Origin: Eubacterium sp.
GTDB lineage: Bacteria > Bacillota > Clostridia > Oscillospirales > Acutalibacteraceae
Assembly: GCA_029258375.1 (NCBI GenBank)
Contig: JARHZA010000002.1
Location: 315,001 to 379,000 of the forward strand
Reading direction: 5' to 3'
DNA: 64,000 nt
Under the pieces are notes generated by a model that saw only the letters and a program-made list of their open reading frames with translations, was not told the origin of the DNA and did not search any database. This document shows, piece after piece, positions 43,611 through 61,430 of the stretch. Every line of letters begins with the position of its first letter. Positions within the stretch are counted from its first letter, which is position 1. The position numbers and the translations under genes are program-made.

Positions 43611-44144
43611 TTAATCTTTTTCAAATCGTTGAGTATCAAAACCAGGGTTGAAAGCATAGTAGTTTTTACTGTTTAGTTTATCGGTAAGAAGTCTTAAACC
43701 TTCGCCAAACCTTTGGTAATGTACTATTTCTCGTTCACGTAAAAATTTAATAGGTTCAATAACATCTGGGTCATCAACTAAACGTAAAATGTTGTCATAG
43801 GTTATTCTTGCTTTTTGTTCAGCAGCAAGGTTTTCGTTTAAGTCTGCAATGGGGTCTCCTGTAGACTGAATGCCAGCAGCACTCCAAGGTGCACCACTTG
43901 CAGCCGTTGGATAAACACCTGTTGTGTGGTCAACAAAATAAGGTGCAAATCCACTCTCCTCAATCTGCTTTTCAGTAAGGTTCCTTGTAAGTTGGTGAAC
44001 AATTGTTCCGATCATTTCAAGGTGACCAAGTTCTTCTGTACCTATATCTGTTAAAAGACCTTTTAATTCAGGTGTGGGCATAGAATAACGTTGTGAAAGA
44101 TAACGCAAAGATGCACCTAATTCGCCATTTGGACCTCCATATTG
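43611..44144 (-). pseudogene. cotJC: cotJC 3' part: spore-coat manganese catalase interrupted by a prophage
   Basis: The frame reads QYGGPNGELGASLRYLSQRY at 44144-44085 and continues as typical CotJC to FNPGFDTQRFEKD. The dinuclear-Mn ligands Glu (NGELGA), Glu/His (EELGHLEM) and the second pair (LAAEQKAR; EIVHYQRF) are all kept. What is missing is the start codon and about 28 N-terminal residues. In-frame stop TAA (44147-44145) lies directly before Gln, where prophage sequence begins. The gene has no other damage, so excision of the element should restore a full reading frame. The 5' part and probably cotJA-cotJB are expected beyond the right end of the prophage. Confidence 0.85.
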
Positions 44145-44150
44145 TTAAAA
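44130..44150. other. Host-prophage junction (att site, left end)
   Basis: CotJC coding sequence (…TATGGAGGTCC on the minus strand) meets phage DNA in the few bases around 44144. The exact core cannot be fixed without the other junction. The recombinase stop codon is only 17 bp away. Confidence 0.7.
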
Positions 44151-44163
44151 GATATAATACGAT

Positions 44164-45600
44164 TTACAAATGAAAAATAATGTGTAGTTGTTGGTTTCCT
44201 TTTTCATAAATTATTTTGCTTATAATTGTTCGTAGTACTTCATTTTTGGCTTGTTCACTGTTGTTATCATCTTTAATAAATTCAACAACGTTTACTATTT
44301 TTTTTGAAAAAGACTTCTTATCAACTTCGTTGTTGTCGGTTGTTTTTAACTTTTCTTTTTTGAGTTGTTCAATAGTGCTTTGTATATCATACTTATTTTG
44401 CTGATATTCTTCCAACGTGTCAACACCGTTTATATATGCTTCTTTGATTTTTTTTAGTTTCATTTCTTCTGATTTGATTATTTTATCAAAATCGACTGTA
44501 ATTTCTTTGCTTTCAGTAGTAGCAGGCATAATTTCAAAATCAAGAGTTTTTACTGCGTTTTCAAGAGCATCAATAACGGCTTTGTTTGCTTTTCTAATTG
44601 ATAAGCTATGCGATATACCACAAGAACCTCTTGCGTAGTTGTGGCACTGCATAGACGGACATTTGGTTGATTGCATAACGAGTGTAGCACCACAATTTGA
44701 GCAACGCACCAAACCTTTTAGCATAAATTGGACTGGTTGGCATTTACGTTGATAGGGAACTCGATTGCTTTTATTCTCAACAAGAAGTTCTTGCACCTTG
44801 TTCCAAGTATCTAAATCAATAATTGGTTCGTGCTGTCCGTCTGATATCATAATGTTTTCATTGTCATAGTCTCTTTTTGACGCAGCCTTTCCATCTGTTG
44901 ACCACCTAATCTTTCCAATATATACAGGGTTATGAAGAATATAATCAATAAGTCGATTATCGGGAGGATTTCCTCGGTGGGTTCGAACACCTTGAAGAGC
45001 CAGCGATCGAGCAATTTCTCTTTCGCCTTTACCGTTTAAATAATCTTCAAAAATCTGCACCACATACGGTGCTTCGCTATTTGGGTAATATTTTTTATCT
45101 CTTAAATCGTAGCCGAAAGCAGGGTGGCACATAGGTTCGCCACGAGTTGCTTTTTCAGTCATCCCACGTTTAACTTCTCCACTTAATCTAATTAGGTAAT
45201 ATTCATCCATCCATTCGATTATTCTTTCAATTAGAGAACCGAACACATCATCAATTATTGGTTCTGATACAGAGAGAACATTAACTCCCTTTTTCTTTAA
45301 AAGAGATTTGTAAACGATGCTTTCTTCTTGATTTCTTGCAAAACGGCTAAATTTCCAAACAAATATAGTTTCAAAAGGTCTTTCGTCTGATTTAGCCATT
45401 GCTATCATTCTATTAAATTCTTTGCGCTTTTTAGTGCTTTTAGCACTAATGCCGTCATCATAGAATACATAATCTTGAGGAACTATATATCCATTGTTTT
45501 TTGCATATTTTTGAATTAGACTTAATTGGCTATCAGGAGAGTATTCATCCTGACGTTCGTCTGATACACGAATATACGCAGCGCCAATTTTTAAACTCAT
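44164..45600 (-). CDS. Large serine recombinase (integrase/excisionase)
   Basis: 478 residues. The N-terminal resolvase domain has AYIRVSDERQDEYSPDSQ with catalytic Ser13 and Arg11, then WKFSRFARN. The recombinase domain follows (EDYLNGKGEREIARSLALQGVRT), then a zinc ribbon (RCSNCGATLVMQS with CHNYARGSCG) and a coiled-coil C-terminus rich in Lys/Glu (about 385-450). Such enzymes act at short att sites without host factors, with excision needing a directionality factor. Its 3' end abuts the cotJC junction. It is preceded by an unusual structured leader (45630-45760). Confidence 0.95.
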   Translation of the reverse strand: MSLKIGAAYIRVSDERQDEYSPDSQLSLIQKYAKNNGYIVPQDYVFYDDGISAKSTKKRKEFNRMIAMAKSDERPFETIFVWKFSRFARNQEESIVYKSLLKKKGVNVLSVSEPIIDDVFGSLIERIIEWMDEYYLIRLSGEVKRGMTEKATRGEPMCHPAFGYDLRDKKYYPNSEAPYVVQIFEDYLNGKGEREIARSLALQGVRTHRGNPPDNRLIDYILHNPVYIGKIRWSTDGKAASKRDYDNENIMISDGQHEPIIDLDTWNKVQELLVENKSNRVPYQRKCQPVQFMLKGLVRCSNCGATLVMQSTKCPSMQCHNYARGSCGISHSLSIRKANKAVIDALENAVKTLDFEIMPATTESKEITVDFDKIIKSEEMKLKKIKEAYINGVDTLEEYQQNKYDIQSTIEQLKKEKLKTTDNNEVDKKSFSKKIVNVVEFIKDDNNSEQAKNEVLRTIISKIIYEKGNQQLHIIFHL

Positions 45601-45632
45601 TGCACCACATCCCTTTATATTTTATTAAAAAA

Positions 45633-45648
45633 GGGCATAAAAATGCCC
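45633..45648 (-). terminator. Terminator-like hairpin in the recombinase leader
   Basis: GGGCA (45633-45637) pairs with TGCCC (45644-45648). On the minus strand the stem is followed by TTTTTT, only about 26 bp before the recombinase start, so it could limit read-through into the recombinase. It overlaps an AGCAGG element able to form an alternative pairing. Confidence 0.5.
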
Positions 45649-45651
45649 TGC

Positions 45652-45680
45652 TTGATTTTGCAGCAGGACTGTGTTACAAT
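45652..45680 (+). promoter_or_regulatory. Candidate plus-strand promoter for a small RNA
   Basis: TTGATT (45652-45657), a 17-bp spacer and TACAAT (45675-45680). It overlaps the left arm of a long inverted repeat. Confidence 0.4.
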
Positions 45681-45686
45681 AATTTT

Positions 45687-45759
45687 GCTTTGTGGGATTG
45701 TAATTCAGTCCTGCTATATATCGTCTTACTCTGCGCCAACAGGGTAGGGCGATTTTTTT
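45687..45759 (+). ncRNA. Candidate ~70-nt prophage small RNA with strong terminator
   Basis: The segment ends in a 14-bp stem (45720-45733 with 45740-45753), loop CGCCAA, followed by seven Ts. Three of its pairs are G-U wobbles only if the plus strand is transcribed; on the minus strand they would be A-C mismatches. There is no plus-strand protein gene upstream for the terminator to serve. Start site estimated from the promoter candidate. No known RNA family recognised. Confidence 0.4.
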
Positions 45760-45767
45760 ATTTTATA

Positions 45768-46739
45768 TTATTCTGCCATTTTATCAATTTGAATATATTC
45801 AGCAGAAACTTTTGGAACAGTGACGGTAGCACCTATCGCACTTTGGTATGTGTACATTCCGTCAAAGTAACCATAAAAAGTAACTATATCATCTTCAAGT
45901 ATTTTCTTGTCATCGTCTTTTGGAAAATAGGTAACATATATTGTGTCGGTGTAATTACCGTATTCAGACTTTGTTACATTAATTCTATATTGACACATAA
46001 AGTCAGAATCTATTGCTTGAATTACTTCTCCAGTGAATTTAACGTGTTCTTCTTTGTATTTGTCAGGTTCTCGTTCTAATGTTTTGTAAGAATAAGTTTT
46101 ACAAGATTGCTTAAATTCTTTTTCTTGCTTTTTTAAATATTCAGTGTCAACAGTAGTTGGCTCTGTTGTAGTTTCTGTAATTAGTTCGGTAGTTGTTTCG
46201 TCTTGTTGAATGATAGAAGTTTGATTTTTTAAATCTTGGTTTTGTAATTTAGAATAGACAACTTCTGATATAGGATATAAAATCAACGAAATTAAAAATA
46301 AGCATATTGTTGTTTTTAAATATTTCTTATCATATTTTAAACAGGTTATAATTCCAAAAATAGAACCAACCATTATGACAGCAAAATCAATAAGAGGGAG
46401 AACAGAACCAGAAGGATGTAATTCTTCGTCAAGAGTAAGAATAAATCCTAAAAAAATAAACGCAAAAAACAAAAAGCATATAGCGAAAAGTATAATTCCA
46501 ATAATTTGAATTGGTTTTTTATATTTATATAAAAAGCTAATCAATTTTTCTTTGAATGTAAGTTCAGCCTTTTTCTGTTGCTCGTCTTCAAAAGTTTCTT
46601 TTCTATCAGTAGCAGGCATTGTAGTTTCTTGTTTTTTAGTATCTATATTTGATTTTTCTTCTATTGATATTTTACTTCCACAGTTTTCACAAAACTTTGC
46701 ATTGTCGTTACATTCGTTACCACAATTTGAACATTTCAT
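45768..46739 (-). CDS. Zinc-ribbon membrane protein of the lysogeny region
   Basis: 323 residues. N-terminal zinc ribbon CSNCGNECNDNAKFCENCG (residues 3-21), a charged linker, then about four membrane helices (near 75-98, 110-135 and 145-165), a Thr-rich linker (TTTELITETTTEPTTVDTE) and a C-terminal soluble domain (about 205-318) with KFTGEVIQAIDSDFMCQYRINV that looks OB-like. The extracytoplasmic side is likely the Thr linker and C-terminal domain. It lies between recombinase and repressor on the lysogenic strand, the place where superinfection-exclusion or host-modifying genes often sit. Function unknown. Confidence 0.75.
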   Translation of the reverse strand: MKCSNCGNECNDNAKFCENCGSKISIEEKSNIDTKKQETTMPATDRKETFEDEQQKKAELTFKEKLISFLYKYKKPIQIIGIILFAICFLFFAFIFLGFILTLDEELHPSGSVLPLIDFAVIMVGSIFGIITCLKYDKKYLKTTICLFLISLILYPISEVVYSKLQNQDLKNQTSIIQQDETTTELITETTTEPTTVDTEYLKKQEKEFKQSCKTYSYKTLEREPDKYKEEHVKFTGEVIQAIDSDFMCQYRINVTKSEYGNYTDTIYVTYFPKDDDKKILEDDIVTFYGYFDGMYTYQSAIGATVTVPKVSAEYIQIDKMAE

Positions 46740-46754
46740 TATACAAGCCTCCTT

Positions 46755-47378
46755 TTATAACTTGCTTGTAAACCCAGTTGCTTTTCCAAGAATACGAATT
46801 CTGTTCATTTCTTCTTTAATGAAAACAAATGGTTGATATTTAGGGTTCTCTGGTTGCAAGATAATTTTATCATCATAAATATAAACACGTTTTAATGTTG
46901 CTTCGTTATCGATCATAACAGCTGCGATTTGACCACTGTCAACAACAGATTGTTGCTTTATATATACAACGTCACCGTCATTTATACGAGCGTTTATCAT
47001 AGAGTCTCCCTTGCATCTTAATGTAAAGTCACATTCGATATTGTTCGGAACTTCATCGTAACCTTCCAAGTTTTCTTCAGCGAGGATAGGTTCACCACAT
47101 GTTATTACACCGAGACGAGGCTTCTTTACTGTGTTTGGTAATGGCATTACACCAGAAATGGAGAACACGTCAAAAGTTTTATCTATATCAATAAAATTAG
47201 CAGGATTTACTTCAAAAAAATCTGCTAATTTTTTTATTGTATCACGTTTTAAGTTTTGAGTTTTTCCAGCTTCCCACTTTTGAACAGCTGCTCTTTGAAC
47301 ACCTACTATTTTTCCAAGATCTTCTTGTGAAAGACCTTTAGATGTTCTTAACATTTTTATATATTCACCTATATCCAT
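46755..47378 (-). CDS. CI-like phage repressor with S24 peptidase domain
   Basis: 207 residues. The N-terminal XRE domain is YIKMLRTSKGLSQEDLGKIVGVQRAAVQKWEAGKTQN. The C-terminal S24 domain has CKGDSMINARINDGD (catalytic Ser in GDSM) and MIDNEATLKRVYI (catalytic Lys), so autocleavage on SOS induction is expected. The in-frame upstream ATG at 47414 has no ribosome site; ATG 47378 follows GAGGTGC. Divergent from the Cro-like gene. Confidence 0.9.
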   Translation of the reverse strand: MDIGEYIKMLRTSKGLSQEDLGKIVGVQRAAVQKWEAGKTQNLKRDTIKKLADFFEVNPANFIDIDKTFDVFSISGVMPLPNTVKKPRLGVITCGEPILAEENLEGYDEVPNNIECDFTLRCKGDSMINARINDGDVVYIKQQSVVDSGQIAAVMIDNEATLKRVYIYDDKIILQPENPKYQPFVFIKEEMNRIRILGKATGFTSKL

Positions 47379-47404
47379 TATATTAAGCACCTCAATTCGT
47401 TTAC

Positions 47405-47433
47405 AATGTATCATATTTTTAACATTTAGTCAA
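47405..47433 (-). promoter_or_regulatory. Repressor promoter
   Basis: On the minus strand, TTGACT (47433-47428), a 17-bp spacer and TACATT (47410-47405). A GTATC half-site (47408-47412) overlaps the -10. Confidence 0.6.
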
Positions 47434-47473
47434 GAATAAACAACAAAAAGCGAAAAAAAAGATACAAAAACTG

Positions 47474-47502
47474 TTGACAAAACAAAAGGCTCAATCTATA
47501 AT
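47474..47502 (+). promoter_or_regulatory. Early (PR-type) promoter of the prophage
   Basis: TTGACA (47474-47479), a 17-bp spacer and TATAAT (47497-47502): fully consensus. Confidence 0.9.
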
Positions 47503-47505
47503 GAA

Positions 47506-47524
47506 TGTATCGAAAAAAGATACA
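47506..47524. promoter_or_regulatory. Repressor operator, site 1
   Basis: TGTATC-7bp-GATACA, just downstream of the early -10. A half-site GATAC (47461-47465) lies upstream of its -35. Confidence 0.75.
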
Positions 47525-47541
47525 AGAAAGGAGAGAGAGTA

Positions 47542-47748
47542 ATGAATACTTCAAAATTACTTGGTATTATAAAAGAAAATAATGATACTCAAGAGAAATT
47601 GGCTGACGCAATCGGGCTTTCAAGAACGAGACTTTCTGCTAAAATTCACGAACGTAACGGTGCTTCGTTTAATCAACCTGAAATTCTTGCAATTAAAAAA
47701 AGATATCATCTTGATGAAATTACGCTTAATGCTGTTTTTTTTAATTGA
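47542..47748 (+). CDS. Cro-like regulator
   Basis: 68 residues with a HTH (TQEKLADAIGLSRTRLSAKIHERNG). Similar in form to the small DUF739-type phage regulators. First gene of the early operon with GAAAGGAGAG before the ATG. Flanked on both sides by the 19-bp operators. Confidence 0.82.
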   Translation: MNTSKLLGIIKENNDTQEKLADAIGLSRTRLSAKIHERNGASFNQPEILAIKKRYHLDEITLNAVFFN

Positions 47749-47750
47749 AA

Positions 47751-47769
47751 TGTATCTCAAAAAGATACA
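47751..47769. promoter_or_regulatory. Repressor operator, site 2
   Basis: TGTATC-7bp-GATACA again, immediately after the Cro-like stop codon. Arms identical to site 1. Confidence 0.7.
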
Positions 47770-47820
47770 TAGTTATTAAATCCATTTAATTCTCATACAT
47801 ACTAACGAGGTGATGAATAG

Positions 47821-47973
47821 ATGGCTGATTTAACAGTCAAAATGTCGATAGACCGAAATGGTGTAATCGAACCATTTAACAGTTTTTCAAAAAAAGATTT
47901 GTTAAAGATGAAAAATGAACTTTCTAAAACAATGAGCCGTTATTACACCAATCATTTAGAAGAAATTCATTAA
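47821..47973 (+). CDS. Small prophage early protein (50 aa)
   Basis: Begins MADLTVKMSIDRNG with GAGGTGATG upstream. Charged, soluble, no known motif. Typical of tiny early genes between the switch and replication functions. Confidence 0.6.
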   Translation: MADLTVKMSIDRNGVIEPFNSFSKKDLLKMKNELSKTMSRYYTNHLEEIH

Positions 47974-47995
47974 ACAAAGTAAAGGAAGTGAAAAT

Positions 47996-48190
47996 ATGGC
48001 AGGACAAGCAACTATGAAAAAGGATTGTTTTGCATTTGATGTTACCAGTAATGGGAAAAACAGATGTACAGCACTTGATGATAAGAGTTTCTTGTGTTCA
48101 CAAGGCAAAGAATGTCCATTTTATAAACCAATTAAAAAATATCTTGAAGATATTGAGACACTCACGAAAGGAGTGGAGCAAAATGTATAG
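47996..48190 (+). CDS. Small Cys-containing prophage protein
   Basis: 64 residues with four cysteines (near 11, 24, 34 and 40; SQGKECPFYKP), which could bind zinc. AAAGGAAGTG precedes ATG 47996. Overlaps the next gene by 8 bp. Confidence 0.7.
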   Translation: MAGQATMKKDCFAFDVTSNGKNRCTALDDKSFLCSQGKECPFYKPIKKYLEDIETLTKGVEQNV

Positions 48191-48410
48191 TGCTACTGTA
48201 TTTTTAATCTATGTATCAATTATTGCATTCGCATTTGTTTTTGCTGAAATTGTTTTTTATGTAATGCGCAAGCATTATTTAAAGAAAGAACGTGTTCGAA
48301 TAAGAGAAATACATTATGCGCAAGCAGAAAATGATACGCAAGAAATAAATGATACATATCAAAATTTAATTTTAAAGCAAATAATGGAGGGAAGTGTAGA
48401 TGAATACTGA
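48183..48410 (+). CDS. Small prophage membrane protein
   Basis: 75 residues: one hydrophobic helix (about 4-27), a basic patch (MRKHYLKKERVRIR) and a Glu/Gln-rich tail. AAAGGAG fits ATG 48183. Overlaps neighbours on both ends; function unknown. Confidence 0.65.
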   Translation: MYSATVFLIYVSIIAFAFVFAEIVFYVMRKHYLKKERVRIREIHYAQAENDTQEINDTYQNLILKQIMEGSVDEY

Positions 48411-48732
48411 TTCTGTTTATGTTGATTTGGCATTTTGGTTAATGTTCGTATTTTTTATTGCTGGTGCAATTTATTTGGTTGCGTACATAAATAATAAAAA
48501 AGCACATAAGCAACTAAATCGCAGAAATAAAAAAAGACCTGCCGAAAGACAAGCCTTTGATGATTGTTCTATTAGTTGTGAAAAAATTAAGTATTATCAA
48601 AATTCGATAGAAGACTTAAAAGACGAAATTGAATATTGGAAAACCGCATATCAATCAGCAGAAATAAGATGTGCTTTGATGCAAGACACCATTACAAAGT
48701 TAAGGACTGTGCAAAATGAAAAAAGAAAATAA
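48400..48732 (+). CDS. Prophage membrane protein with coiled coil
   Basis: 110 residues. One N-terminal helix (10-30), a strongly basic stretch (KKAHKQLNRRNKKRPAER) and then a coiled coil (about 60-108). Coupled to the previous gene. Pairing of two single-helix proteins suggests they act together; function unknown. Confidence 0.65.
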   Translation: MNTDSVYVDLAFWLMFVFFIAGAIYLVAYINNKKAHKQLNRRNKKRPAERQAFDDCSISCEKIKYYQNSIEDLKDEIEYWKTAYQSAEIRCALMQDTITKLRTVQNEKRK

Positions 48733-48791
48733 AAAAAGCCACAGTCCAGGAAACTGTGGCCAGGCTATACATTACTGTGATAACCGATCGC
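48731..48791 (-). ncRNA. Candidate ~60-nt antisense-strand small RNA
   Basis: On the minus strand, a perfect terminator (stem 48753-48760 with 48738-48745, loop of 7) is followed by seven Ts, yet no minus-strand protein gene lies nearby. The promoter candidate just upstream would give a transcript of about 60 nt. It lies in the gap between two plus-strand early genes. Confidence 0.4.
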
Positions 48792-48819
48792 AAGATTATG
48801 TTATCACAAAATATAGCCT
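48762..48819. repeat. Nested inverted repeats in the early operon
   Basis: Outer arms AGGCTATA (48762-48769) and TATAGCCT (48812-48819) enclose inner arms GTGATAAC (48777-48784) and GTTATCAC (48800-48807). They could fold in the plus-strand mRNA just before AAGGAGG, or act as an operator over the minus-strand promoter. Confidence 0.7.
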
Positions 48820-48826
48820 GTGTCAA
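48798..48826 (-). promoter_or_regulatory. Candidate minus-strand promoter
   Basis: TTGACA (48826-48821), a 17-bp spacer and TAACAT (48803-48798), overlapping the inner inverted repeat. Confidence 0.45.
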
Positions 48827-48839
48827 GGAGGTTATATTT

Positions 48840-49187
48840 ATGACTAAAAAGAAAGTTCAAAAAAATCAATATGGAGAATTTGGTAACGTGCTTCTCTCAA
48901 ATGAAGAGTTGGAGAAGTTAAAGCAACGTTTGCCAAGTTCTTATAATTCATACATAGAAAAAGTTGACGGATATATTGAATCAAAGGGCAAGAACCCTTA
49001 TGCAAGTCACTATGCAACAATTTTGAATTGGGCAAGACGTGACGGCGAAACAATGTCTCAAAAACAACAGTTGCAAGATAGGGCGCTGAATAAAAAGCAA
49101 GAACAAGGGCGCATTTCACGAAAACCGTCTTATGATCTTGAGCAAATCAAACGTGATGCAATGATGAATACTACAATTAAGTTTTAA
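48840..49187 (+). CDS. Phage replication-organizer C-terminal-like protein
   Basis: 115 residues. The block YIESKGKNPYASHYATILNWARRDGE resembles the C-terminal segment of many phage replication-initiation proteins (…YKNHYATILNWxRRD), but here it stands alone without a DNA-binding half. Basic C-terminus. ATG 48840 has AAGGAGG at 8 bp; an in-frame ATG at 48756 lies inside the structured region and is rejected. Confidence 0.65.
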   Translation: MTKKKVQKNQYGEFGNVLLSNEELEKLKQRLPSSYNSYIEKVDGYIESKGKNPYASHYATILNWARRDGETMSQKQQLQDRALNKKQEQGRISRKPSYDLEQIKRDAMMNTTIKF

Positions 49188-49197
49188 GGGGGATAAA

Positions 49198-49584
49198 ATG
49201 CAAAGAAAAACAGAACTCGGAGAACAGCAAGCCCTTTTCGATTGGGCAAAGTATGCAGCAGGCAAATATCCAGAACTTAAATTACTTTTCCATATCCCTA
49301 ACGAGGGTAAACGTAGCCAAATTGGCGGAGCAAATTTAAAAGCAGCAGGCCTTTCTCCTGGTGTGCCAGATATATGTTTGCCAGTAGCGAAAGGAAAATA
49401 TAATGCTTGTTATATAGAACTCAAAAAGGACAAGTCTTGCAAAACTTCCAAAGAGCAAAATAAATGGATAGAACTTTTACAAAATGCTGGTAATTTTGCA
49501 ACCGTCTGTCATTCTGCAGATGAGGCAATTCAAACCCTTACGGCTTATTTAAGTTTAAAACGAGGTGCAAATAATGACGATTGA
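49198..49584 (+). CDS. VRR-NUC domain nuclease
   Basis: 128 residues with the PD-(D/E)xK pattern: LLFHIPNEGKRS, GLSPGVPDICLPVAKGKYNACYIELKK. These are the VRR-NUC catalytic residues (Asp in GVPD, ExK in IELKK). Phage versions act in replication or recombination. Overlaps the next gene by 11 bp. Confidence 0.88.
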   Translation: MQRKTELGEQQALFDWAKYAAGKYPELKLLFHIPNEGKRSQIGGANLKAAGLSPGVPDICLPVAKGKYNACYIELKKDKSCKTSKEQNKWIELLQNAGNFATVCHSADEAIQTLTAYLSLKRGANNDD

Positions 49585-49957
49585 TGAGGCATTAGTGTGC
49601 CAAAAGCACCGATATCCAGTTAAAGTGAGAAAATCATATTCAACCGAGCATCTTGTTGACAAAGATTATAAGATTTGTGAGTTGCACAAATGTATGAACG
49701 TATATACCAAATCATACATACAATCCGTAACTTTGCAAGACAAAGGCCGTTCAGTTCGTCAGATTGATATTGATGATGTTTACGTTCCACAGCCTTTTGA
49801 AAAGATTGTGGAAAATCAAGTAAAACAACTTCAAAAGCAAAGGTTCAAAAAATGCCTTGAAAATCTTTTGACAGAGGGCAAAAACAAAACAGAAATAAAC
49901 AAGATTGTGAAAAGTCTTGTAGATGAAATTAAGGAGAGTAAAAATGAACAAAGATAA
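49574..49957 (+). CDS. Prophage early protein of unknown function
   Basis: 127 residues; ATG 49574 with GAGGTG upstream. Charged, with a C-terminal Lys-rich helix. Two cysteines in ICELHKCMNVY. No family recognised. Coupled to both neighbours. Confidence 0.6.
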   Translation: MTIDEALVCQKHRYPVKVRKSYSTEHLVDKDYKICELHKCMNVYTKSYIQSVTLQDKGRSVRQIDIDDVYVPQPFEKIVENQVKQLQKQRFKKCLENLLTEGKNKTEINKIVKSLVDEIKESKNEQR

Positions 49958-50330
49958 TGAAACAGTAATTCCAATCATAGAGGTTCTTCTTGTAGAACCA
50001 GGGAAAAGTCCTCAAATAAAAATAATTGAAGATACTCTTCGCTCAATGCGGAGAGTAGTTGGCGGAAATATTCAAACTTATCCACTTGAAGACGGAGCAG
50101 TATTGGTTTGTGACGAAGAAGGAAAAATTAAAAATAAACCTATAAACCGAGCAATCAGAATATATGATTCTGAGACTGGCGAATTTAAAACAACGGATGT
50201 TATTGTTGGCACATTTTTTGTTTGTTATGCTCCAGAAGGAAGCGAAGAATTTTGGAGTTTGCCAGAACGACTTCAAGAAAAATATTTAAAACTCTTTTCA
50301 GAGAATTTAAGAATTGATTTAAAGATTTAA
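49944..50330 (+). CDS. DUF3846 family protein
   Basis: 128 residues. Motifs MRRVVGGNIQTYPL, LVCDEEGKIKNKPINRAIR and VGTFFVCYAPEG match DUF3846, common in mobile elements of Firmicutes. Function unknown. AAGGAGAG is well placed before ATG 49944. Confidence 0.75.
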   Translation: MNKDNETVIPIIEVLLVEPGKSPQIKIIEDTLRSMRRVVGGNIQTYPLEDGAVLVCDEEGKIKNKPINRAIRIYDSETGEFKTTDVIVGTFFVCYAPEGSEEFWSLPERLQEKYLKLFSENLRIDLKI

Positions 50331-50346
50331 GGGAGGAAGTTATGAA

Positions 50347-50781
50347 GTGATTAACAATGTGGTTTTAATGGGTAGATTAACCTTTGAGCCAGAATTAAAA
50401 AGTACACCAAGTGGTGTTTCAATATTAAATTTTCAAATTGCTTGCGAAAGAAATTATCAAAAAGCAAATGAAGAAAAGAAAACAGATTTTATTGACTGTA
50501 TCGCCTGGAGACAGACTGCTGAATTTATTTCAAGATATTTTAGCAAAGGCTCAATGATTGCAGTTGAAGGTTCTATTCAGACCAACAGTTTCACAGACCA
50601 AAACGGAAATAAAAGAAAAAGTGTTCAAGTTGTTGCAAACAACGTTTCTTTTTGTGGCTCAAAAGCAGAGAGTGGCACAAACACAAACCCTGCTTACAGT
50701 CAGCCAACACCAAGTTACGCAACATCAGACAACAGTGACTTTGAAGAAATCGTTGATGATGAAGACGACTTACCATTTTGA
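50347..50781 (+). CDS. ssb: Single-stranded DNA-binding protein
   Basis: 144 residues starting at GTG (INNVVLMGRLTFEPELK). OB-fold region with FIDCIAWRQTAEFISRYFSKGSMIAVEGSIQT, then a Ser/Thr-rich linker and the acidic tip DDEDDLPF that binds partner proteins. GGAGGAAG lies upstream. Preceding the Rep-like gene, it fits a replication module. Confidence 0.95.
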   Translation: MINNVVLMGRLTFEPELKSTPSGVSILNFQIACERNYQKANEEKKTDFIDCIAWRQTAEFISRYFSKGSMIAVEGSIQTNSFTDQNGNKRKSVQVVANNVSFCGSKAESGTNTNPAYSQPTPSYATSDNSDFEEIVDDEDDLPF

Positions 50782-50798
50782 TGTTAAGGAGTACAAAA

Positions 50799-50990
50799 AT
50801 GAAAGTTTATGAACTTATGAAAATGCTATCAAAAGAACCTGCAGGCAATGAAGTTGTAGTTGGTGGGTTTTTAACAATGGAAGAAATAAAAAAATCAGAA
50901 AAAACTAATCAAAATGAATATTTAAGTAATGGCATTGCTGAATATGTTGATGATGACAATACGACTACATATATTCATTTTCTAAGATGA
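50799..50990 (+). CDS. Small prophage protein
   Basis: 63 residues (MKVYELMKMLSKEPAG…). AAGGAG before ATG 50799. Short acidic protein of the kind often found next to ssb in phages; unknown role. Confidence 0.6.
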   Translation: MKVYELMKMLSKEPAGNEVVVGGFLTMEEIKKSEKTNQNEYLSNGIAEYVDDDNTTTYIHFLR

Positions 50991-51172
50991 TGAACTACTT
51001 TGAACTTTTAAAAATACACAAACAATTTACAGCAGAAGAATTATTAAAAATGCTGAATGAAGAAGAAAAGTCAGGCTTAATTAACGTTGTCGAAATTAAG
51101 TTTGACTTTTTCGAGCAAATACCCAAAACGATATACGAACTATACCAGCTTATAATTAAAGAACGTTATTAA
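50987..51172 (+). CDS. Small prophage protein (61 aa)
   Basis: ATGA overlap with the preceding gene, but no clear ribosome site. Acidic helical peptide. Plausible by coupling only. Confidence 0.45.
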   Translation: MMNYFELLKIHKQFTAEELLKMLNEEEKSGLINVVEIKFDFFEQIPKTIYELYQLIIKERY

Positions 51173-51207
51173 CATTATTTATTACATTATATATAAGCAA
51201 AAATTTC

Positions 51208-51269
51208 TCGGAGCGACTGCTCCGATTAGAACTTGATTAAAGCATTAAATTAACGACCAAGTTAATTTA
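51208..51269. repeat. Two inverted repeats upstream of the Rep-like gene (origin candidate)
   Basis: TCGGAGC/GCTCCGA (51208-51214 and 51219-51225, loop GACT), and TAAATTAAC/GTTAATTTA (51246-51254 and 51261-51269, loop GACCAA). No T-run follows either, so they are not terminators. Position next to an HUH Rep suits a nick site. Confidence 0.45.
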
Positions 51270-51284
51270 TTAGAAAGAGGAAAA

Positions 51285-52055
51285 ATGGCTTACATAAAAA
51301 AGAAAACGGTCGCAGGAAATTCTATAAGAATTGAAAAATACTATTCATCAAGATATGGGAGCAAGGGAAAATGCACACGTTCTCAAAATTTTGAAAAGAC
51401 ACCTGAAAAAATGGCAATTAGAAACGCACGTTATGCGTGCATTAAAGCAGACGACGTTTTTAATGCGAATTTTAAAGAGGGCGATCTTATGCTTACATTC
51501 ACATTTTCACCAAATAAAAGACCTTCTAATCCAAATGAAGTTTTGAAAATTTGGAACAATTATATTCGCCGTGTTAGATATGCTTACAAAAAAGCAGGTG
51601 TTGTGTTCAAATGGCAAAAGGGCATAGAAACACCTGAGAAGAACCCACATATACACGCTGCGTTTACATACATAGATATTGCTTTTCTTCCTAAGTGGGA
51701 ATACGGCAGTGTGAAAATAGAACGTTTTGACGATAGAGACCATCACACTTATGGTGGATATATGCGAGAGCAAACTCATATTAAAGCAGGAAACGCAGGT
51801 AAATATAATCAAGCGAAATCTACACAGTTTTATAGCCATAGCAGAAATTGCGTTATTCCTCAGCCGGAAGTAACAGTTATTACATCAGACCATTGGGCTG
51901 ACGAACCAAAAGCACCAAAGGGCTATTATGTTGTAAAAGAAAGTGTGCAAAATTGGGAAGACGAAGTCAACGGTTACAAACATCAGAGTTATGTTCTGTG
52001 CAAAATCCCAGATAAAAACAAAAAGCCTTGTAGCAGGCATAGGAGAAAGGAGTAA
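51285..52055 (+). CDS. HUH-type replication initiator-like protein
   Basis: 256 residues. Motif 1 GDLMLTFTFSP is near residue 67, the metal-binding HUH motif in NPHIHAAFTY is near 122, and candidate nucleophile tyrosines follow (GGYMREQ and GKYNQAK, ~158-177). This pattern fits rolling-circle Rep proteins. C-terminal region is Lys/Arg-rich. GAAAGAGG lies before the ATG. It probably nicks the nearby inverted repeats. Found inside a dsDNA tailed-phage genome. Confidence 0.65.
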   Translation: MAYIKKKTVAGNSIRIEKYYSSRYGSKGKCTRSQNFEKTPEKMAIRNARYACIKADDVFNANFKEGDLMLTFTFSPNKRPSNPNEVLKIWNNYIRRVRYAYKKAGVVFKWQKGIETPEKNPHIHAAFTYIDIAFLPKWEYGSVKIERFDDRDHHTYGGYMREQTHIKAGNAGKYNQAKSTQFYSHSRNCVIPQPEVTVITSDHWADEPKAPKGYYVVKESVQNWEDEVNGYKHQSYVLCKIPDKNKKPCSRHRRKE

Positions 52056-52057
52056 AA

Positions 52058-52159
52058 ATGGTTGAAAGTGGTATGACATATAAAGAAATGCTAATTGCTG
52101 TTGAAAAATTTGCAAAAGCAGTCACAGAGTTTTGCCAAAAAAAGGCAATATGTGAATAA
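52058..52159 (+). CDS. 33-residue prophage peptide
   Basis: AAAGGAG precedes ATG 52058, 2 bp after the Rep-like stop. Amphipathic helix (MLIAVEKFAKAVTEF); unknown. Confidence 0.5.
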   Translation: MVESGMTYKEMLIAVEKFAKAVTEFCQKKAICE

Positions 52160-52194
52160 TATTCACAAGAACTATAAAAGAAAGGTTAAATGAT

Positions 52195-52560
52195 ATGAAA
52201 GAATGTATATGTAATAAGTGTGAAAAATCTTTTATTCCAGAATTTAAACATGAAGTTATTGCAGAAGATGAACAAGGTGGAGAAGTGGTACAAACATTCT
52301 TCACATGTCCGCATTGTGAGACACGATACAATAGCTTGATTACAGATTCTAAATACCGCCAACTATTAGACGAGTATAGGAGAAGAAGTAAAAAAATCTA
52401 TAAAGAAGTACAAAAAAATCAGAATCAAGCAAAGATACAAGCTATGTTAAAAAAGTTAGAAACTTTTGAAACGCAAGAATTAAAACCATATTACCAGAAA
52501 ATGAAAGAAAAATATCGAGGAGATATGTTCGATGAACAATTCACAGAAACTTCCAAATGA
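52195..52560 (+). CDS. Zinc-finger prophage protein
   Basis: 121 residues with CICNKCEKSF near the N-terminus and CPHCETRYNS near 38, a CxxC…CxxC zinc site, then a long Lys-rich coiled coil. Of the type found ahead of late regulators in phages; unknown role. Overlaps the ArpU-like gene by 29 bp. Confidence 0.7.
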   Translation: MKECICNKCEKSFIPEFKHEVIAEDEQGGEVVQTFFTCPHCETRYNSLITDSKYRQLLDEYRRRSKKIYKEVQKNQNQAKIQAMLKKLETFETQELKPYYQKMKEKYRGDMFDEQFTETSK

Positions 52561-53008
52561 TGTTAAATTTACAATTCTTGCTCTAATAAGAGGACAAAAG
52601 AGAAGAAGAATTAAATATCTTCAAGATTGTGACAACATTTTAAATAGTGGTGGTGCTCATTGCGTTACATATAAAACCCAAAGTGGAGCATCGGCACTTG
52701 CTTATCTGCCTTCTTCTATGTCAAAAAGCATTAGTGATACAGAACGTAAAGCTTTAGCTTTGAAGGCTCTTAATGAGAGCATGGATGTTAAAGTTTTAAA
52801 AACCATTGATGAAGCATTTGAAACTATCGGTTCAGATATTCCTTCAAAAGAAGTAAGAAATAAACTTCAAAATGGAATTTACTTAAATTGTACAAGTAGA
52901 GAATATCCCTATGAGAAGTTAGAACTTCCAGGGATTTCGAGAAAAAGTTTTTATAAAGCAAAATATAAATTGCTTTATAAAATAGCAAAAGAATTAGAAT
53001 TATTTTAA
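52532..53008 (+). CDS. ArpU/RinA-like late transcription regulator
   Basis: 158 residues. The C-terminal segment LPGISRKSFYKAKYKLLYKIAKELELF is the sigma-like helix-turn-helix seen in ArpU-family regulators of late genes. Location, last before the packaging genes, agrees. GGAGATATG precedes ATG 52532. Confidence 0.65.
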   Translation: MNNSQKLPNDVKFTILALIRGQKRRRIKYLQDCDNILNSGGAHCVTYKTQSGASALAYLPSSMSKSISDTERKALALKALNESMDVKVLKTIDEAFETIGSDIPSKEVRNKLQNGIYLNCTSREYPYEKLELPGISRKSFYKAKYKLLYKIAKELELF

Positions 53009-53096
53009 AATAGGTCACGGAACACTGAAAGCAACCGCTATAATGAGTATAGTGGAAGTTGAAACATATTGGTGGCTCCACAAAATCTCCTTAATT

Positions 53097-53120
53097 GCTG
53101 CAACATTAAGTTGTTGCAGC
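53097..53120. repeat. Inverted repeat upstream of the HNH gene
   Basis: GCTGCAAC (53097-53104) pairs with GTTGCAGC (53113-53120); no T-run. Within the 129-bp gap between the late regulator and the HNH gene, it could be a late-promoter or packaging element. Confidence 0.5.
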
Positions 53121-53136
53121 AGAAAAGAAGGAAAAG

Positions 53137-53493
53137 ATGAGAAAGAATGAAAACTTAACTGTTTGGATTAAACGATTGATAGCAGAAGATAAGCTTGATG
53201 AGTTCTACACGAGTAGACCATGGCGTAAAGTTCGAGCGGAAAGTTTTAAAAGATTCAACTATGAATGCCAAGAATGTAAGAGAAACGGAAGACTAACTCT
53301 TCTTGCTAAGCCGAACCAAAGAGTTAAGCCAGGCGAAGTAATTGGTATTGGACATCACATTAAGCCATTAAGAGTTTATCCTGAACTTGCGTTAACAGTT
53401 GAAAACATTGAACCTGTTTGTTGGTCATGTCATAATGAAATCGAAAAGAAAAAAGAAAACAAAGAAACAGAATTGACCGAGGAGGTGTGGTAA
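53137..53493 (+). CDS. HNH endonuclease
   Basis: 118 residues. CQECKRNGR and CWSCHNEIEKKK form the zinc pair around the catalytic HHIKPL (residue ~76). In HK97-type phages an HNH protein next to terminase is needed for cos cleavage. Its stop lies in the left arm of the following palindrome. Confidence 0.9.
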   Translation: MRKNENLTVWIKRLIAEDKLDEFYTSRPWRKVRAESFKRFNYECQECKRNGRLTLLAKPNQRVKPGEVIGIGHHIKPLRVYPELALTVENIEPVCWSCHNEIEKKKENKETELTEEVW

Positions 53494-53611
53494 TACCCCC
53501 CCCGGTCAAATTTTTTAATATTTTTTGCAAACCTGTCAACCGAGCACCCCCCTGACAAATTGGGTGTCTCGCGCGTGTGAGGGGAAATTTGGTAAGGAGA
53601 GAAGTGAGAAT
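53473..53611. other. Candidate cos (packaging) region with inverted repeats
   Basis: TTGACCG (53473-53479) and CGGTCAA (53503-53509) flank a G/C-rich core with eight Cs, followed by T-runs. A second imperfect pair, GAGCACCC (53542-53549) and GGGTGTCTC (53562-53570), is next to CGCGCGTGTGAGGGG. This G/C-rich stretch in AT-rich DNA, between HNH and small terminase genes, is where cos lies in HNH-type phages. The first palindrome may also terminate early transcription. Confidence 0.5.
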
Positions 53612-53944
53612 TTGGCGAGCAACAAAAAAATTACTATTTTAGATATTAAAAATAGTCTATTAGAGCAACTTGAAAAAAATGGCTCAAAAACACCTTTTTT
53701 TGAAGCATTAGTTGATGATTATATGTTCTATGAAAGAGAAGAACGTAAGATGAAAAAAGATGTTAAAAAGAGGGGAGTTACATTTGAAGCAGTTTCGGCA
53801 CAAGGGAAAACTTATGACAAGGAAAATCCAAGTGTAAAAGGCGCAATAATGTACAACAAACAAAAATTAGCAATTTTGAAGCAGCTGAATCTTACAGTCG
53901 ATTCTGTAGTTTTAGAGGATGACGATGAAGACTCTGAACTCTAA
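53612..53944 (+). CDS. Terminase small subunit
   Basis: 110 residues from TTG 53612 (ASNKKITILDIK), with AAGGAG upstream; the longer frame from 53525 runs through the cos-like region. Fits the P27 small-terminase type (ALVDDYMFYE; NPSVKGAIMYNKQKLAILKQLNL), with an acidic end. Recognises DNA for packaging. Overlaps the large subunit. Confidence 0.8.
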   Translation: MASNKKITILDIKNSLLEQLEKNGSKTPFFEALVDDYMFYEREERKMKKDVKKRGVTFEAVSAQGKTYDKENPSVKGAIMYNKQKLAILKQLNLTVDSVVLEDDDEDSEL

Positions 53945-55577
53945 TTTACAAGAATATATAGACCTCGTTGAATATGGTGAAATACTGGTTTGCAAAGAAC
54001 AGATAAAAGGCATTGAACTTGTCAAGAATGTATTTGATAACGAAGATGTTTATGTCGACGATGAATTGATGAAACGCTATTTGTCTTTGCAAAAATATTT
54101 TCCGTTCGATTTATTTCCTTGGCAAAAATATTGCTTTGCTCTTCATAATTGCACTTTTAGACGAGACGGCTTTTTAAGATTTAGTCGTCTTGATATGTTC
54201 GTTGGTCGAGGAAGCGGTAAAAACGGTTACGCAGGTTTTGAGGCTTTTGCAAATACGACACCAGTTAATGCTGTGGAAAACTACCATATTCAAGTAGTAG
54301 CTACTGTTGAACGTCAAGCAAAGACCTCATTTGAAGATGTTTATAATGTTCTTGAAAAAAATGAAAGAAGAATGAGTTCAAAGTTCGATTGGAACAAAGA
54401 AGAAATTATGAATAAAGCAACACGTTCCAGGTTTTTCTATGGAACAGGTTCAGCAAATTCAAAAGATGGTGGACGTGAAGGTGAAATTATCATTGATGAA
54501 GAACACGCTTATGAAAATGCTGACATCATAGATGTACTTGAGGGTGGTCTTGGTAAAACTGAAAAGCCTCGAATTTTAAGAATATCTTCATTCGGTGATG
54601 TTCGTGATGGAGTAATGGATGATGACATAGAAACAGGCCTTGAAATATTGAATGGAATAGTTCCAGATGGTGGTCGTTATCCGTTTATTGCAAGACTTGA
54701 TAGTCCAGAAGAGGTTCACGATGAAAGAAACTGGGTTAAAGCTTGTCCATCGCTTCCATATCTTCCAAATCTTATGGAAACATACCGTAATCAATATGAA
54801 GAATATAAAAGGAATCCTACTCAACATTTGGCATTTATGACTAAAAGAATGGGTATTCCACAAGGAACAAGCAATAAGCCGGTTACATCTCTTGAAAATA
54901 TGAATGCGGCAGTTGATAAAGTATTACCTGACCTTAACGGTCTTAGCTGTATAGTTGGAATTGACTATGCACGATTAAATGACTTTGCATCAGCTGGATT
55001 TTTGTTCAAGGTTGGTGAAGAGGTGGTTTGGAAGCAACATACATGGGTATGTCAACAGTCAAGGAACTTAACAAGGGTAAAAGCTCCTCTTAAAAAGTGG
55101 GAGGCAGAAGGAAGACTTACTTTTGTTAACAAAGTAGAAATTCCACCTGAAAATATAACCGAATGGGTTGCGAATGAAATTGACAGATATAAATATAACG
55201 TTGAAAAAATCGCACTTGATTCATTTAGATACACATTGATGAAAAAAGCGCTTGTTGAAATTGGTTTCGATTCTGATAAAAAAGGCAGAAATAACATAAA
55301 ACTTGTTAGACCAAGTGACATTATTAAAACTGTACCAGTTATTGATAGTTATTTTAATAACAAGAAAATTAACTGGGGGGGAGAAGTAATGATGCGTTGG
55401 TATTGCAACAACGCTATGTTGAGAAAAGAACGTAGTGGGGAGTTTAGCTATGGCAAACAGGAAGCAAAGTCAAGAAAAACGGACGGCTTTATGGCATTTG
55501 CCGCAGCAATGACCGAACTTGATTTACTGAATATACAAGAATTCGATTTTACAAACATTGTTTGCCACGAATATTAA
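53925..55577 (+). CDS. Terminase large subunit
   Basis: 550 residues. ATPase Walker A-like FVGRGSGKN near 92, Walker B EIIIDEEHAY near 188, and C-terminal nuclease region with CIVGIDYARLNDFASAGFLF near 345 and AMTELDLL near 535. Phage Terminase_1 family, cuts and pumps DNA into the prohead. ATG 53925 is 6 bp after GAGG; ATG 53919 touches it. Confidence 0.93.
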   Translation: MKTLNSNLQEYIDLVEYGEILVCKEQIKGIELVKNVFDNEDVYVDDELMKRYLSLQKYFPFDLFPWQKYCFALHNCTFRRDGFLRFSRLDMFVGRGSGKNGYAGFEAFANTTPVNAVENYHIQVVATVERQAKTSFEDVYNVLEKNERRMSSKFDWNKEEIMNKATRSRFFYGTGSANSKDGGREGEIIIDEEHAYENADIIDVLEGGLGKTEKPRILRISSFGDVRDGVMDDDIETGLEILNGIVPDGGRYPFIARLDSPEEVHDERNWVKACPSLPYLPNLMETYRNQYEEYKRNPTQHLAFMTKRMGIPQGTSNKPVTSLENMNAAVDKVLPDLNGLSCIVGIDYARLNDFASAGFLFKVGEEVVWKQHTWVCQQSRNLTRVKAPLKKWEAEGRLTFVNKVEIPPENITEWVANEIDRYKYNVEKIALDSFRYTLMKKALVEIGFDSDKKGRNNIKLVRPSDIIKTVPVIDSYFNNKKINWGGEVMMRWYCNNAMLRKERSGEFSYGKQEAKSRKTDGFMAFAAAMTELDLLNIQEFDFTNIVCHEY

Positions 55578-55597
55578 GATTTTAAGGAGGTGAAAGA

Positions 55598-56782
55598 ATG
55601 AATATTTTTAGATGGTTCAGTAGAAAAGAAAAAACTGCTGATTTGAATTTTCGGCAATTACAGGAACAGGTGGAAGTGATTCAAAATCGAATAGATGCAG
55701 AATTGTACGCAGAATTTGTTGTAGTTGAATTTATAGCCAAAGCATTCTCAAAAATGGAAATCAAATTTTTTAAAAATAACAAACCTTTTTACGGCGAGGA
55801 ATATTACCGTTGGAATATTAAGCCGAATGATTTCCAAAGCGGAACGGAGTTCAAAAAAGAAATTGCAGCAAGAGCATTGATAGACGGTGAGTTGCTTATT
55901 TTTGAAACACCAAAACATGGTGTTGCTGTTGCTGATAGTTTTGAAATAAAAGAAAACGGTACCTCAGGATATCTTTTTACAAATATTACAAAAAATGGTC
56001 AAAAGTATTTGGATGTTAAAAGTTCTTCAGATGTAATTTATTTCAATTATGAATCAAGTGAAATCAAAGGAAGACTTAGGTATTTACTCGGAGGACTACA
56101 AGAACTTATCACGAATGCTGCAGAACTGTATGAGAAAAATTCTAAAAGTAAAGTAATTCTTGATATTGATACTTTAAAAACTGGTAGCAAAAATTTTCAA
56201 GAAAATGTTGATAAACTTTTGAATGAACAATTTTCAAAATTTTTCAATTCAAAGAATAATGCCGTAATTCCAATATATGACGGAATGAAATATCACGACA
56301 TAAATTCCAATAATTCAAATAAAAAAAGCGAAGTTGACGATATAACTAAAGTTATCAATGAAATGATTTCAAAATCAGCAATTTCGCACGGAGTCCATCC
56401 TGCTATGGTAATCGGTGATAAAGAAAATACCGCTGATGCCGAAAAAGTAACAGTAAGCAATGCAATTAAGCCTATTGCTTTAAACCTTGTAACTGCTATA
56501 AATGCAAATCTTTTTGATAAAAATGACTTTGCAGCAGGCACATACGCTAAAGAAAACTTGTCGCCGATTGTTTATTCAACTATTTTCGACCACGCAGATG
56601 CTACTGATAAGTCATTAGCGAGCGGAATGTTTAGTATAGACGAATTACGAGAAGCAAAAGGCGAAAGAGCTTTAAACACTCCATGGAGTAAGGCACATTG
56701 GATGACTAAGAACTATCAAGAAATCACTAAGATTGATTCTGATGAACCGAAAGGGGGTGAAAAGGAGTGGCAGAAAATGTGA
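55598..56782 (+). CDS. Portal protein (HK97 type)
   Basis: 394 residues. Blocks FVVVEFIAKAFSKMEIKFF, GELLIFETPKHG and GVHPAMVIGDKENTADAEKVTVSNAIKP match the phage portal family. It forms the dodecameric vertex ring. AAGGAGGTG precedes the ATG. Overlaps the protease gene. Confidence 0.9.
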   Translation: MNIFRWFSRKEKTADLNFRQLQEQVEVIQNRIDAELYAEFVVVEFIAKAFSKMEIKFFKNNKPFYGEEYYRWNIKPNDFQSGTEFKKEIAARALIDGELLIFETPKHGVAVADSFEIKENGTSGYLFTNITKNGQKYLDVKSSSDVIYFNYESSEIKGRLRYLLGGLQELITNAAELYEKNSKSKVILDIDTLKTGSKNFQENVDKLLNEQFSKFFNSKNNAVIPIYDGMKYHDINSNNSNKKSEVDDITKVINEMISKSAISHGVHPAMVIGDKENTADAEKVTVSNAIKPIALNLVTAINANLFDKNDFAAGTYAKENLSPIVYSTIFDHADATDKSLASGMFSIDELREAKGERALNTPWSKAHWMTKNYQEITKIDSDEPKGGEKEWQKM

Positions 56783-57483
56783 AAAAGACAGGTAAGATTA
56801 AAGCTACTTCAGTTGATGAAAATGACTTGGAAGTTATCAGACAATTTTCTCTTTTAGATGAAATAAACAAAGATAAGATTTTCTGTTTCAAGGTGTCACT
56901 TTGCAACAACGAAATAGATAGAGACACAGAGGTGTTCTCAACGGAATGCTTAAAAGGTCTTGCTGAACTGTTTGTTGGAAAAACTGGTGTTAAAGATCAC
57001 AACTGGAAAAGTGAAAACCAAATTGCAAGAATTTTTAAAACTGAAGTGGTTATATCAGAAACAGAAAAAACATCTTATGGTGAGCCGTTTTCTGAAATAA
57101 TTGCACACGCATATATGGTGAGAAATGCAAGCAATGAAGACTTGATTGCTGATATTGAAATGGGAATCAAGAAAGAAGTAAGTATTGCTTGTTCAGTTTC
57201 AAAAGCAACTTGTAGTATCTGCGGTAAAGATTTTAGAACAGAACGATGTGAACATACTCTTGGCGAAAGTTATGGAGAAAAAAAGTGTTTTGCAATTTTG
57301 AGTGACCCAATAGATGCTTATGAGTGGAGTTTTGTAGCTGTTCCTGCTCAAAAGGATGCAGGTATAACAAAATCAAAAGAAGCAGGCGAAAGAGAACCTT
57401 ATCCAGAGCCTGTTGTTAAAAATAAAAAAGAAAAATCTAAAAAAACAATAAAAAGCACTTTGATTAGTGCTTTTTCTATTTAA
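56767..57483 (+). CDS. Prohead maturation protease
   Basis: 238 residues from GTG 56767. The catalytic His is probably in VKDHNWKSENQIARI and Ser in KKEVSIACSVSKA, in the order of HK97-type proteases. It also has a zinc-knuckle-like insert CSICGKDFRTERCEHTLGE. Lys-rich end overlaps a terminator hairpin. Position between portal and capsid is canonical. Confidence 0.85.
   Translation: MAENVKKTGKIKATSVDENDLEVIRQFSLLDEINKDKIFCFKVSLCNNEIDRDTEVFSTECLKGLAELFVGKTGVKDHNWKSENQIARIFKTEVVISETEKTSYGEPFSEIIAHAYMVRNASNEDLIADIEMGIKKEVSIACSVSKATCSICGKDFRTERCEHTLGESYGEKKCFAILSDPIDAYEWSFVAVPAQKDAGITKSKEAGEREPYPEPVVKNKKEKSKKTIKSTLISAFSI
57451..57474 (+). terminator. Terminator-like hairpin inside the 3' end of the protease gene
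   Basis: AAAAGCACT (57451-57459) pairs with AGTGCTTTT (57466-57474), with T-run. It encodes the last residues of the protease and lies before the capsid gene. Confidence 0.6.
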
Positions 57484-57496
57484 TGGAGGTATTTAA

Positions 57497-58732: not shown

Positions 58733-58743
58733 TGGTGATTTAG

Positions 58744-60175: not shown

Positions 60176-60186
60176 GAGGTAATAAA

Positions 60187-60801: not shown

Positions 60802-60810
60802 TATGAAAGG

Positions 60811-60836
60811 AAAAGGTGCGATAATTCGCACCTTTT
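60811..60836 (+). terminator. Terminator after the tail-tube gene
   Basis: AAAAGGTGCGA (60811-60821) pairs with TCGCACCTTTT (60826-60836), T-run follows, inside the late operon. Confidence 0.85.
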
Positions 60837-60845
60837 TTTGTGATT

Positions 60846-61418: not shown

Positions 61419-61430
61419 AGAGGTGATTAA

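Follow-up and report, generated by a model that had tools for sequence, protein, structure and literature searches.

The sporulation gene cotJC is interrupted by a prophage in the genome analysed here and is broken by various recombinase-bearing elements in many other gut bacteria, which makes it a strong candidate for a gene spliced at the DNA level as spores form. The prophage is quite probably a sporulation-gene intervening element of the skin and SP-beta type, which the mother cell would excise. Elements of this kind are already known, whereas no report of a split cotJC was found in the literature searched (preprints and most subscription papers lay outside the search).

A prophage within cotJC

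The window, i.e., the whole stretch of 64,000 nucleotides that was analysed, is G000:C3:315001-379000 of the source genome G000, which comprises 1.72 Mb in three contigs (Table 1). The initial annotation, made from the window, had placed the C-terminal part of CotJC, beginning at QYGGP, on the edge of the prophage and had predicted the missing first codons at its far end. The 3' frame opens immediately past a TAA, which stands before CAATATGG in the window sequence. The 5' piece was found at the far end, beyond the window, and its strand, core, frame and protein sequence all fit the prediction. Among the 80 kb examined, CAATATGGAGG occurs twice, with a spacing of 30,609 bp, and excision at this core is predicted to yield a single CotJC frame of 204 aa, without a frameshift. 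The joined protein closely resembles unsplit copies of the same genus (e.g., L012 and L014), matches PF05067 and contains all four ligand-motif patterns, the assignment of manganese ligands to CotJC motifs being our assumption. A second intact cotJC, the possible objection named in that annotation, is absent: a profile search of the whole source genome gave two Mn_catalase matches, namely, the window piece and a 34-residue piece on the same strand (C3:389733-389834), which are the two parts of the gene. The serine recombinase noticed beside the junction is present, at a distance of 19 bp from the 11-bp core and not 17 bp as first given.

Table 1. Features of the split cotJC gene and its prophage (window positions, unless a contig is named)
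Feature	Position	Strand	Remarks
cotJC 3' part	43611..44144	-	QYGGP codons to stop; Pfam Mn_catalase, 149 bits; partner piece and in-frame join
Shared core CAATATGGAGG, 11 bp, attL side	44134..44144	-	exact match; second copy at C3:389743-389753
Prophage, left 19.9 kb of 30.6 kb	44145..64000	.	continues past the window to C3:389742
Large serine recombinase (integrase)	44164..45600	-	PF00239, PF07508, PF13408; PHROG integrase; site-A clade; 3' end towards junction
CI-like phage repressor	46755..47414	-	PHROG 4, E 1e-41
Candidate recombination directionality factor, 50 aa	47821..47973	+	small-protein family beside site-A-type recombinases; weak match to function-unknown PHROG
Phage replication initiation protein	51285..52055	+	PHROG 3584, E 2e-41
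Terminase large subunit	53919..55577	+	PHROG 9, E 4e-102
Portal protein	55598..56782	+	PHROG 12, E 6e-31
Major head protein	57497..58732	+	PHROG 10, E 1e-32
cotJC 5' part	G000:C3:389743-389834	-	beyond the window; 27 codons and QYGG, then LGG and stop

The prophage is of the siphovirus type, and the large serine recombinase next to the junction carries Resolvase, Recombinase and zinc-ribbon domains (Pfam). Searches with ten of the prophage proteins hit families named integrase, repressor, replication protein, terminase, portal, major head, minor tail, holin and endolysin. An Abi_2 abortive-infection-like gene is also carried by the prophage (L003:7959-8873). At its right flank, on the host side of the cotJC 5' piece, a segment of 223 nt is repeated at 96% (L002:884-1106 and 1828-2050), and the end of azlD is present twice at 80-84% (L002:1690-1768 and 2513-2591); these repeats suggest an older insertion or a tandem event there. 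Comparison of ten proteins flanking the window locus with six 13-kb stretches around unsplit same-genus copies gave no match for any of the ten and no uninterrupted cotJC in a matching neighbourhood.

As for the sporulation regulators of the source genome, a profile search gave a Spo0A_C match above its cut-off. The best match to the sigma-K model reached 288.2 bits, below the curated 298.65, the same model matching 11 of 14 controls, and this best sigma-K-like match is one unbroken piece. A sigK-like gene lies in two pieces in G015, of the same genus (C65:1870-2208 and C11:26195-26545, covering profile positions 2-114 and 108-224), and is likely a skin-like split; it is the sole such case among the matches listed for 36 genomes.

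Four break sites and their frequency across the order

Relatives show cotJC broken at four sites, which are A (QYGG|P), B (DIG|TEE), C (LAA|E) and D (at QRFG(E/D)). All four fall at what we take to be the metal-ligand motifs of manganese catalase. A first survey of 60 genomes (the source genome, 36 of the same genus and 23 of the order) gave many PF05067 matches that were fragments with fixed ends or starts. The order was sampled evenly, with 394 genomes of at least 80% completeness; PF05067 matched in 333 of these and had no match in 61. Genomes with a best E-value weaker than about 1e-45, together with some others, were searched again and the matched intervals were classified for 135, of which 122 were split without a full-length copy, six had split and full-length copies and seven neither. 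One of the 122, G154, looks frameshifted, so that cotJC exists only in pieces in about 121 of the 394 genomes. Split genomes numbered 37 for site A, 66 for B and 49 for C, with two or three sites in 23; these counts include doubtful cases, cover sites A, B and C, draw a few site-A calls from pieces near contig ends (G246, G344) and leave genomes with full-length matches mostly outside the screen for extra pieces.

Site D was discovered because several joined products ended early. A 39-aa query in 20 genomes found a separate last cotJC piece in 16 (G004, G008, G015, G021, G024, G025, G028, G048, G069, G202, G212, G250, G301, G331, G346 and G389); by the same query, the source genome and G336 are unsplit at this site, G139 gave the first half only and G013 gave no match.

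Both pieces lie inside contigs in the one- or two-contig genomes G192, G222, G258 and G336 and on the complete chromosome of Ruminococcus sp. FMBCY1, where they join in frame, and the breaks, which have a recombinase alongside, are concentrated at four sites. It is hence extremely improbable that assembly artefacts or truncation at contig ends produced the apparent fragments, even though most relatives have draft assemblies, some of the pieces are situated at contig ends and 24 of the genomes classed as split yielded a single piece.

Split genes joining in frame were also found in Anaeromassilibacillus senegalensis An867, Blautia sp. MSJ-19, Roseburia sp. 1XD42-69, Hominisplanchenecus murintestinalis NM72 and Faecalimonas umbilicata DSM 103426, and, together with a full-length copy, in Mobilitalea sibirica DSM 26468. 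The middle and last pieces of Lachnotalea glycerini DSM 28816 joined in frame, its first piece being undetected, and Blautia parvula has a full-length cotJC and additional pieces. These nine strains were chosen as named isolates among the loci found with the window recombinase and do not constitute a sample.

A few arrangements differ. The pieces are non-collinear in G139 (C1), G405 (C1) and G346 (C50) and lie on opposite strands in G211 (C3); simple excision cannot join pieces in such an order or orientation, and rearrangement or second copies may account for them. A stray CotJC-like fragment of 24 residues in G033 (L330:4439-4510), at a distance of 1.8 kb from where an unsplit cotJC ends, is perhaps the scar of a past insertion.

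In-frame joins and shared cores

Joining was attempted for 37 genomes, of which G009, G011 and G023 yielded one piece only. All 41 neighbouring piece pairs tried gave stop-free in-frame joins, 40 of them at sites A, B and C (the 41st, from G032, was excluded from the site counts because its middle piece was not found), as did all 13 pairs tried at site D, from the 16 genomes. The in-frame count alone proves little, since the procedure admitted only in-frame stop-free joins and required, for two D pairs, the QRFG motif as well. The cores are short: at the 40 A-C junctions at least five bases were shared in 27, three or four in seven and two in six, and at 11 D joins the corresponding numbers were seven, three and one. 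In a frame-blind control, the longest shared string was in frame at 41 of 52 junctions and in the same register at 31 of 52, a control not fully independent because the junctions already chosen formed the centres of its windows. The longest shared string averaged 7.3 bases, against 5.3 in mismatched controls, and reached at least seven bases at 25 junctions, against three mismatched controls.

The joined products also bear on whether the split cotJC is a pseudogene being lost. All four ligand-motif patterns were matched in 25 of 34 products, and same-genus dN was similar for split (0.06-0.13) and unsplit copies (0.04-0.13), with dS mostly saturated and part of the divergence predating insertion; this similarity speaks against long decay and not against recent insertion. 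The remaining nine products miss at least one pattern, two of them (G008 and G032) because pieces are missing, and CotJC is absent from many genomes and looks frameshifted in G154, as decay would predict. On balance, we judge such decay very unlikely.

Genes in several pieces and small elements

The most fragmented gene was found in G250, in which five collinear cotJC pieces separated by four elements lie on one contig over 83 kb and join into a CotJC of 228 aa. The junctions are at 205601-212910 (A), 213009-262172 (B), 262385-274768 (C) and 274896-288916 (D), and the core at site B is two bases long. The site-B element (L115, L114) contains two different serine recombinases, one per end, at 24 and 12 bp from the junctions, the second being B-like. 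Four pieces, separated at sites B, C and D, were found in G069.

Several elements are small, i.e., 2.3 kb in G410, 2.85 kb in G202 (site D), 3.1 kb in G258, 3.7 kb in G328, 4.0 kb in G222, 5.1 kb in G336 (site B) and 5.6 kb in G069 (site C). The recombinase frame in G202 is just 201 aa; the family search covered open frames besides the recombinase in the other six elements. Their cargo consists of Amidase_6 (G410), a GH25 protein with LysM and a cupin (G222), pyrimidine nucleoside phosphorylase (G258), an ABC transporter (G328), iron hydrogenase and alcohol dehydrogenase (G336), and a histidine kinase, a response regulator and PepSY (G069). Terminase, portal and major head families were absent from the matches listed for the searched frames of these six elements; the GH25 protein of G222 also matches phage endolysin families and, via its LysM repeats, three tail families.

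Recombinases and their sites

Of the 51 junctions, 50 have a recombinase no more than 3.5 kb away and 46 have one no more than 250 bp away, none being found at the G405 junction. Its 3' end mostly points towards the junction, with exceptions at site B of G258 and site D of G069. In a tree of 46 rows and 400 aa, the recombinases of sites A (13 rows), C (seven) and D (nine) are each set apart by a branch with a support of 100, and 16 of the 17 site-B rows are also grouped, the exception being G250_B, a long branch. The site changes three times on this tree, against 24.2 times in shuffles. As judged from the aligned proteins, each break site is served by its own recombinase clade, with the deep joins between clades unsure. 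The rows of G022 and G122, which belong to different genera, are identical; such closely related recombinases across genera indicate that the elements move. A CotJC piece accompanies 55 of 80 named loci matched by the window recombinase, and none was found in the stretch taken for the other 25, some of which was cut short; more distant relatives of this recombinase may have other targets.

Candidate directionality factors and promoter motifs

Clustering revealed a small gene on the opposite strand within 4 kb of site-A-type recombinases in 36 of 81 loci, among them that of the window; it was not found in the 4 kb searched in the other 45. This A-family gene is preceded by CATANNNT in 21 of the 36 loci, against 7.2 in shuffles. 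The pattern ACAR-N6-16-CATA was noticed post hoc and afterwards tested on a separate viral set (IMG/VR), in which the small gene occurred in 41 of 75 loci, always on the opposite strand. Among 29 IMG/VR copies kept, CATANNNT preceded 23 (shuffles, 6.0) and ACAR-N6-16-CATA preceded 24 (4.0); the sigma-K-type pattern was present in 14 (0.5 on average and 3 at most) and TATAAT in none (2.8). Training copies had been excluded from this set by exact protein only, and the result held when three near-copies (L232, L236, L291) were later removed. By comparison, 951 upstream regions of other genes in the same loci contained the sigma-K pattern eight times and CATANNNT 175 times. The sigma-E and sigma-K consensus patterns used throughout are those that we assume for these factors.

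Other small genes lie directly before the recombinase in B and C elements. They are preceded by CATANNNT in 12 of 14 (B) and 11 of 11 (C) cases, against 2.7 each when shuffled, and the sigma-E-type pattern stands before 7 of 14 (0.3 when shuffled) and 8 of 11 (0.4), with no excess of the sigma-K type (0 of 14 and 1 of 11). These tests covered two of eight clusters, chosen by eye, with patterns fixed beforehand and no separate set; a B-side cluster of 13 loci and the D genes lay outside them. The A-family model found nothing better than E 0.07 among the small frames of B, C and D elements, and small-protein seeds from G410 and G222 had almost no relatives. The small genes are candidate directionality factors by virtue of size, place and promoter, and the sigma-E/K-type motifs before them support mother-cell excision as in skin and SP-beta.

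For the window small gene itself, a -10-like CATACATAC lies upstream without a convincing -35. Recombinase upstream regions showed modest excesses only, with the sigma-K type in 3 of 35 (0.45 shuffled) and CATANNNT in 18 of 35 (8.7). Sigma motifs were also sought before the cotJC 5' piece and set aside: the sigma-K and sigma-E types each occurred in 2 of 34 upstream regions (shuffles, 0.1 and 0.9), which is little excess and gives little support to a candidate promoter seen there in the source genome. In most genera outside the source genus, the 5' piece follows a frame ending in PWPWE, presumably CotJB.

Proposed regulated excision versus ordinary lysogeny

Serine integrases insert without loss of sequence, by mechanism. 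The initial annotation had argued that a lossless split is hard to explain as random insertion; that argument is weak, and a lossless split alone is no argument against ordinary lysogeny. Lossless insertion suits equally an account in which cotJC is a harmless attachment site, favoured because it offers conserved DNA in a gene dispensable for growth, with excision in phage induction only and cotJC off in lysogens. The terminase, portal, head, tail, holin and endolysin genes of the window prophage and the lack of cotJC in 61 of 394 genomes agree with this account, which we nevertheless consider unlikely in view of the sigma-E/K-type motifs before small genes in three element families, of joins that are stop-free even with two to four elements (detection relied on open frames and may have passed over decayed pieces), and of six elements of 2.3 to 5.6 kb that retain recombinase and frame without recognised phage structural genes. 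Recurrence, stop-free joins and mother-cell-type promoter motifs together argue for regulated excision. The skin-like arrangement first proposed for the window is borne out in sequence and is strengthened by relatives, through the four fixed sites, the recombinase clades and the promoter motifs.

From the pieces, cores, in-frame joins, recombinases, their match of site and clade and the promoter motifs in relatives, we infer that the element is excised, when this happens, what the small protein does and that the product acts as a catalase, as follows. In growing cells, the prophage would be integrated by its own serine recombinase at the CotJC codons QYGG, which immediately precede the first Mn-ligand region. 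During sporulation, a small directionality factor encoded by the element, under a sigma-E/sigma-K-type promoter, would switch the recombinase to excision in the mother cell; recombination between attL and attR would then remove 30.6 kb and restore cotJC for production of a spore-coat manganese catalase, and the forespore would keep the prophage. Across the order and beyond, cotJC would have been colonised at four sites by four recombinase clades, sometimes several together. We lean towards a wider reading as well, less firmly than towards that of the window prophage, in which cotJC is as a rule kept in fragments. Each of its four active-site motifs would belong to a separate, independent recombinase lineage, with as many as four elements present together; as many as five DNA pieces would be spliced in mother cells through excisions that are encoded separately and timed in common, and the small non-phage elements would have become resident cassettes. 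CotJC itself seems dispensable, with no match in the 61 genomes above; in C. difficile, mutants of two CotJC paralogues are reported to have had less catalase and no marked coat defect (PMC11222575).

Relation to known elements and significance

In Bacillus subtilis, the functional prophage SP-beta splits the spore-envelope gene spsM and has the serine recombinase SprA; its SprB (58 aa) is induced in the mother cell, with a -10 that matches sigma-E/K and an imperfect -35 (PMC4191935). The window element likewise combines a prophage in a spore gene with a serine recombinase, but the gene differs, SP-beta uses one site, and excision and factor are predictions here. The skin element in Clostridioides difficile sigK has a serine recombinase and the 72-aa directionality factor CD1234, under sigma-E and SpoIIID (PMC5025042); it splits a regulator, whereas cotJC encodes a structural coat enzyme. 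The gin element in gerE of B. cereus ATCC10987 is a non-phage element of 28.6 kb with three serine recombinases at one site (PMC5595907), and the small cotJC elements are, similarly, non-phage intervening elements with a serine recombinase. The yin element is, like the window element, a prophage; it lies inside the coat-related yabG of C. botulinum with a putative sigma-K promoter before a candidate factor; joined yabG increases on sporulation, and its authors call yin unique (PMC10747680). The phi027 prophage of C. difficile is attached beside the CotJC-like gene cotG/CDR20291_1465 (PMC11222575, PMC12122855), whereas cotJC is itself split here.

Only a few cases are known in which a sporulation gene undergoes programmed excision. 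Within one order, some three-tenths of the genomes sampled appear to hold cotJC in pieces, with different recombinase clades converging on the metal-binding motifs of this gene. The question of why mobile elements target mother-cell genes thereby becomes directly testable by comparison, and the named cultured strains with a split cotJC are open to experiment. These data also suggest that searches of gut genomes can easily overlook cotJC or misinterpret it.
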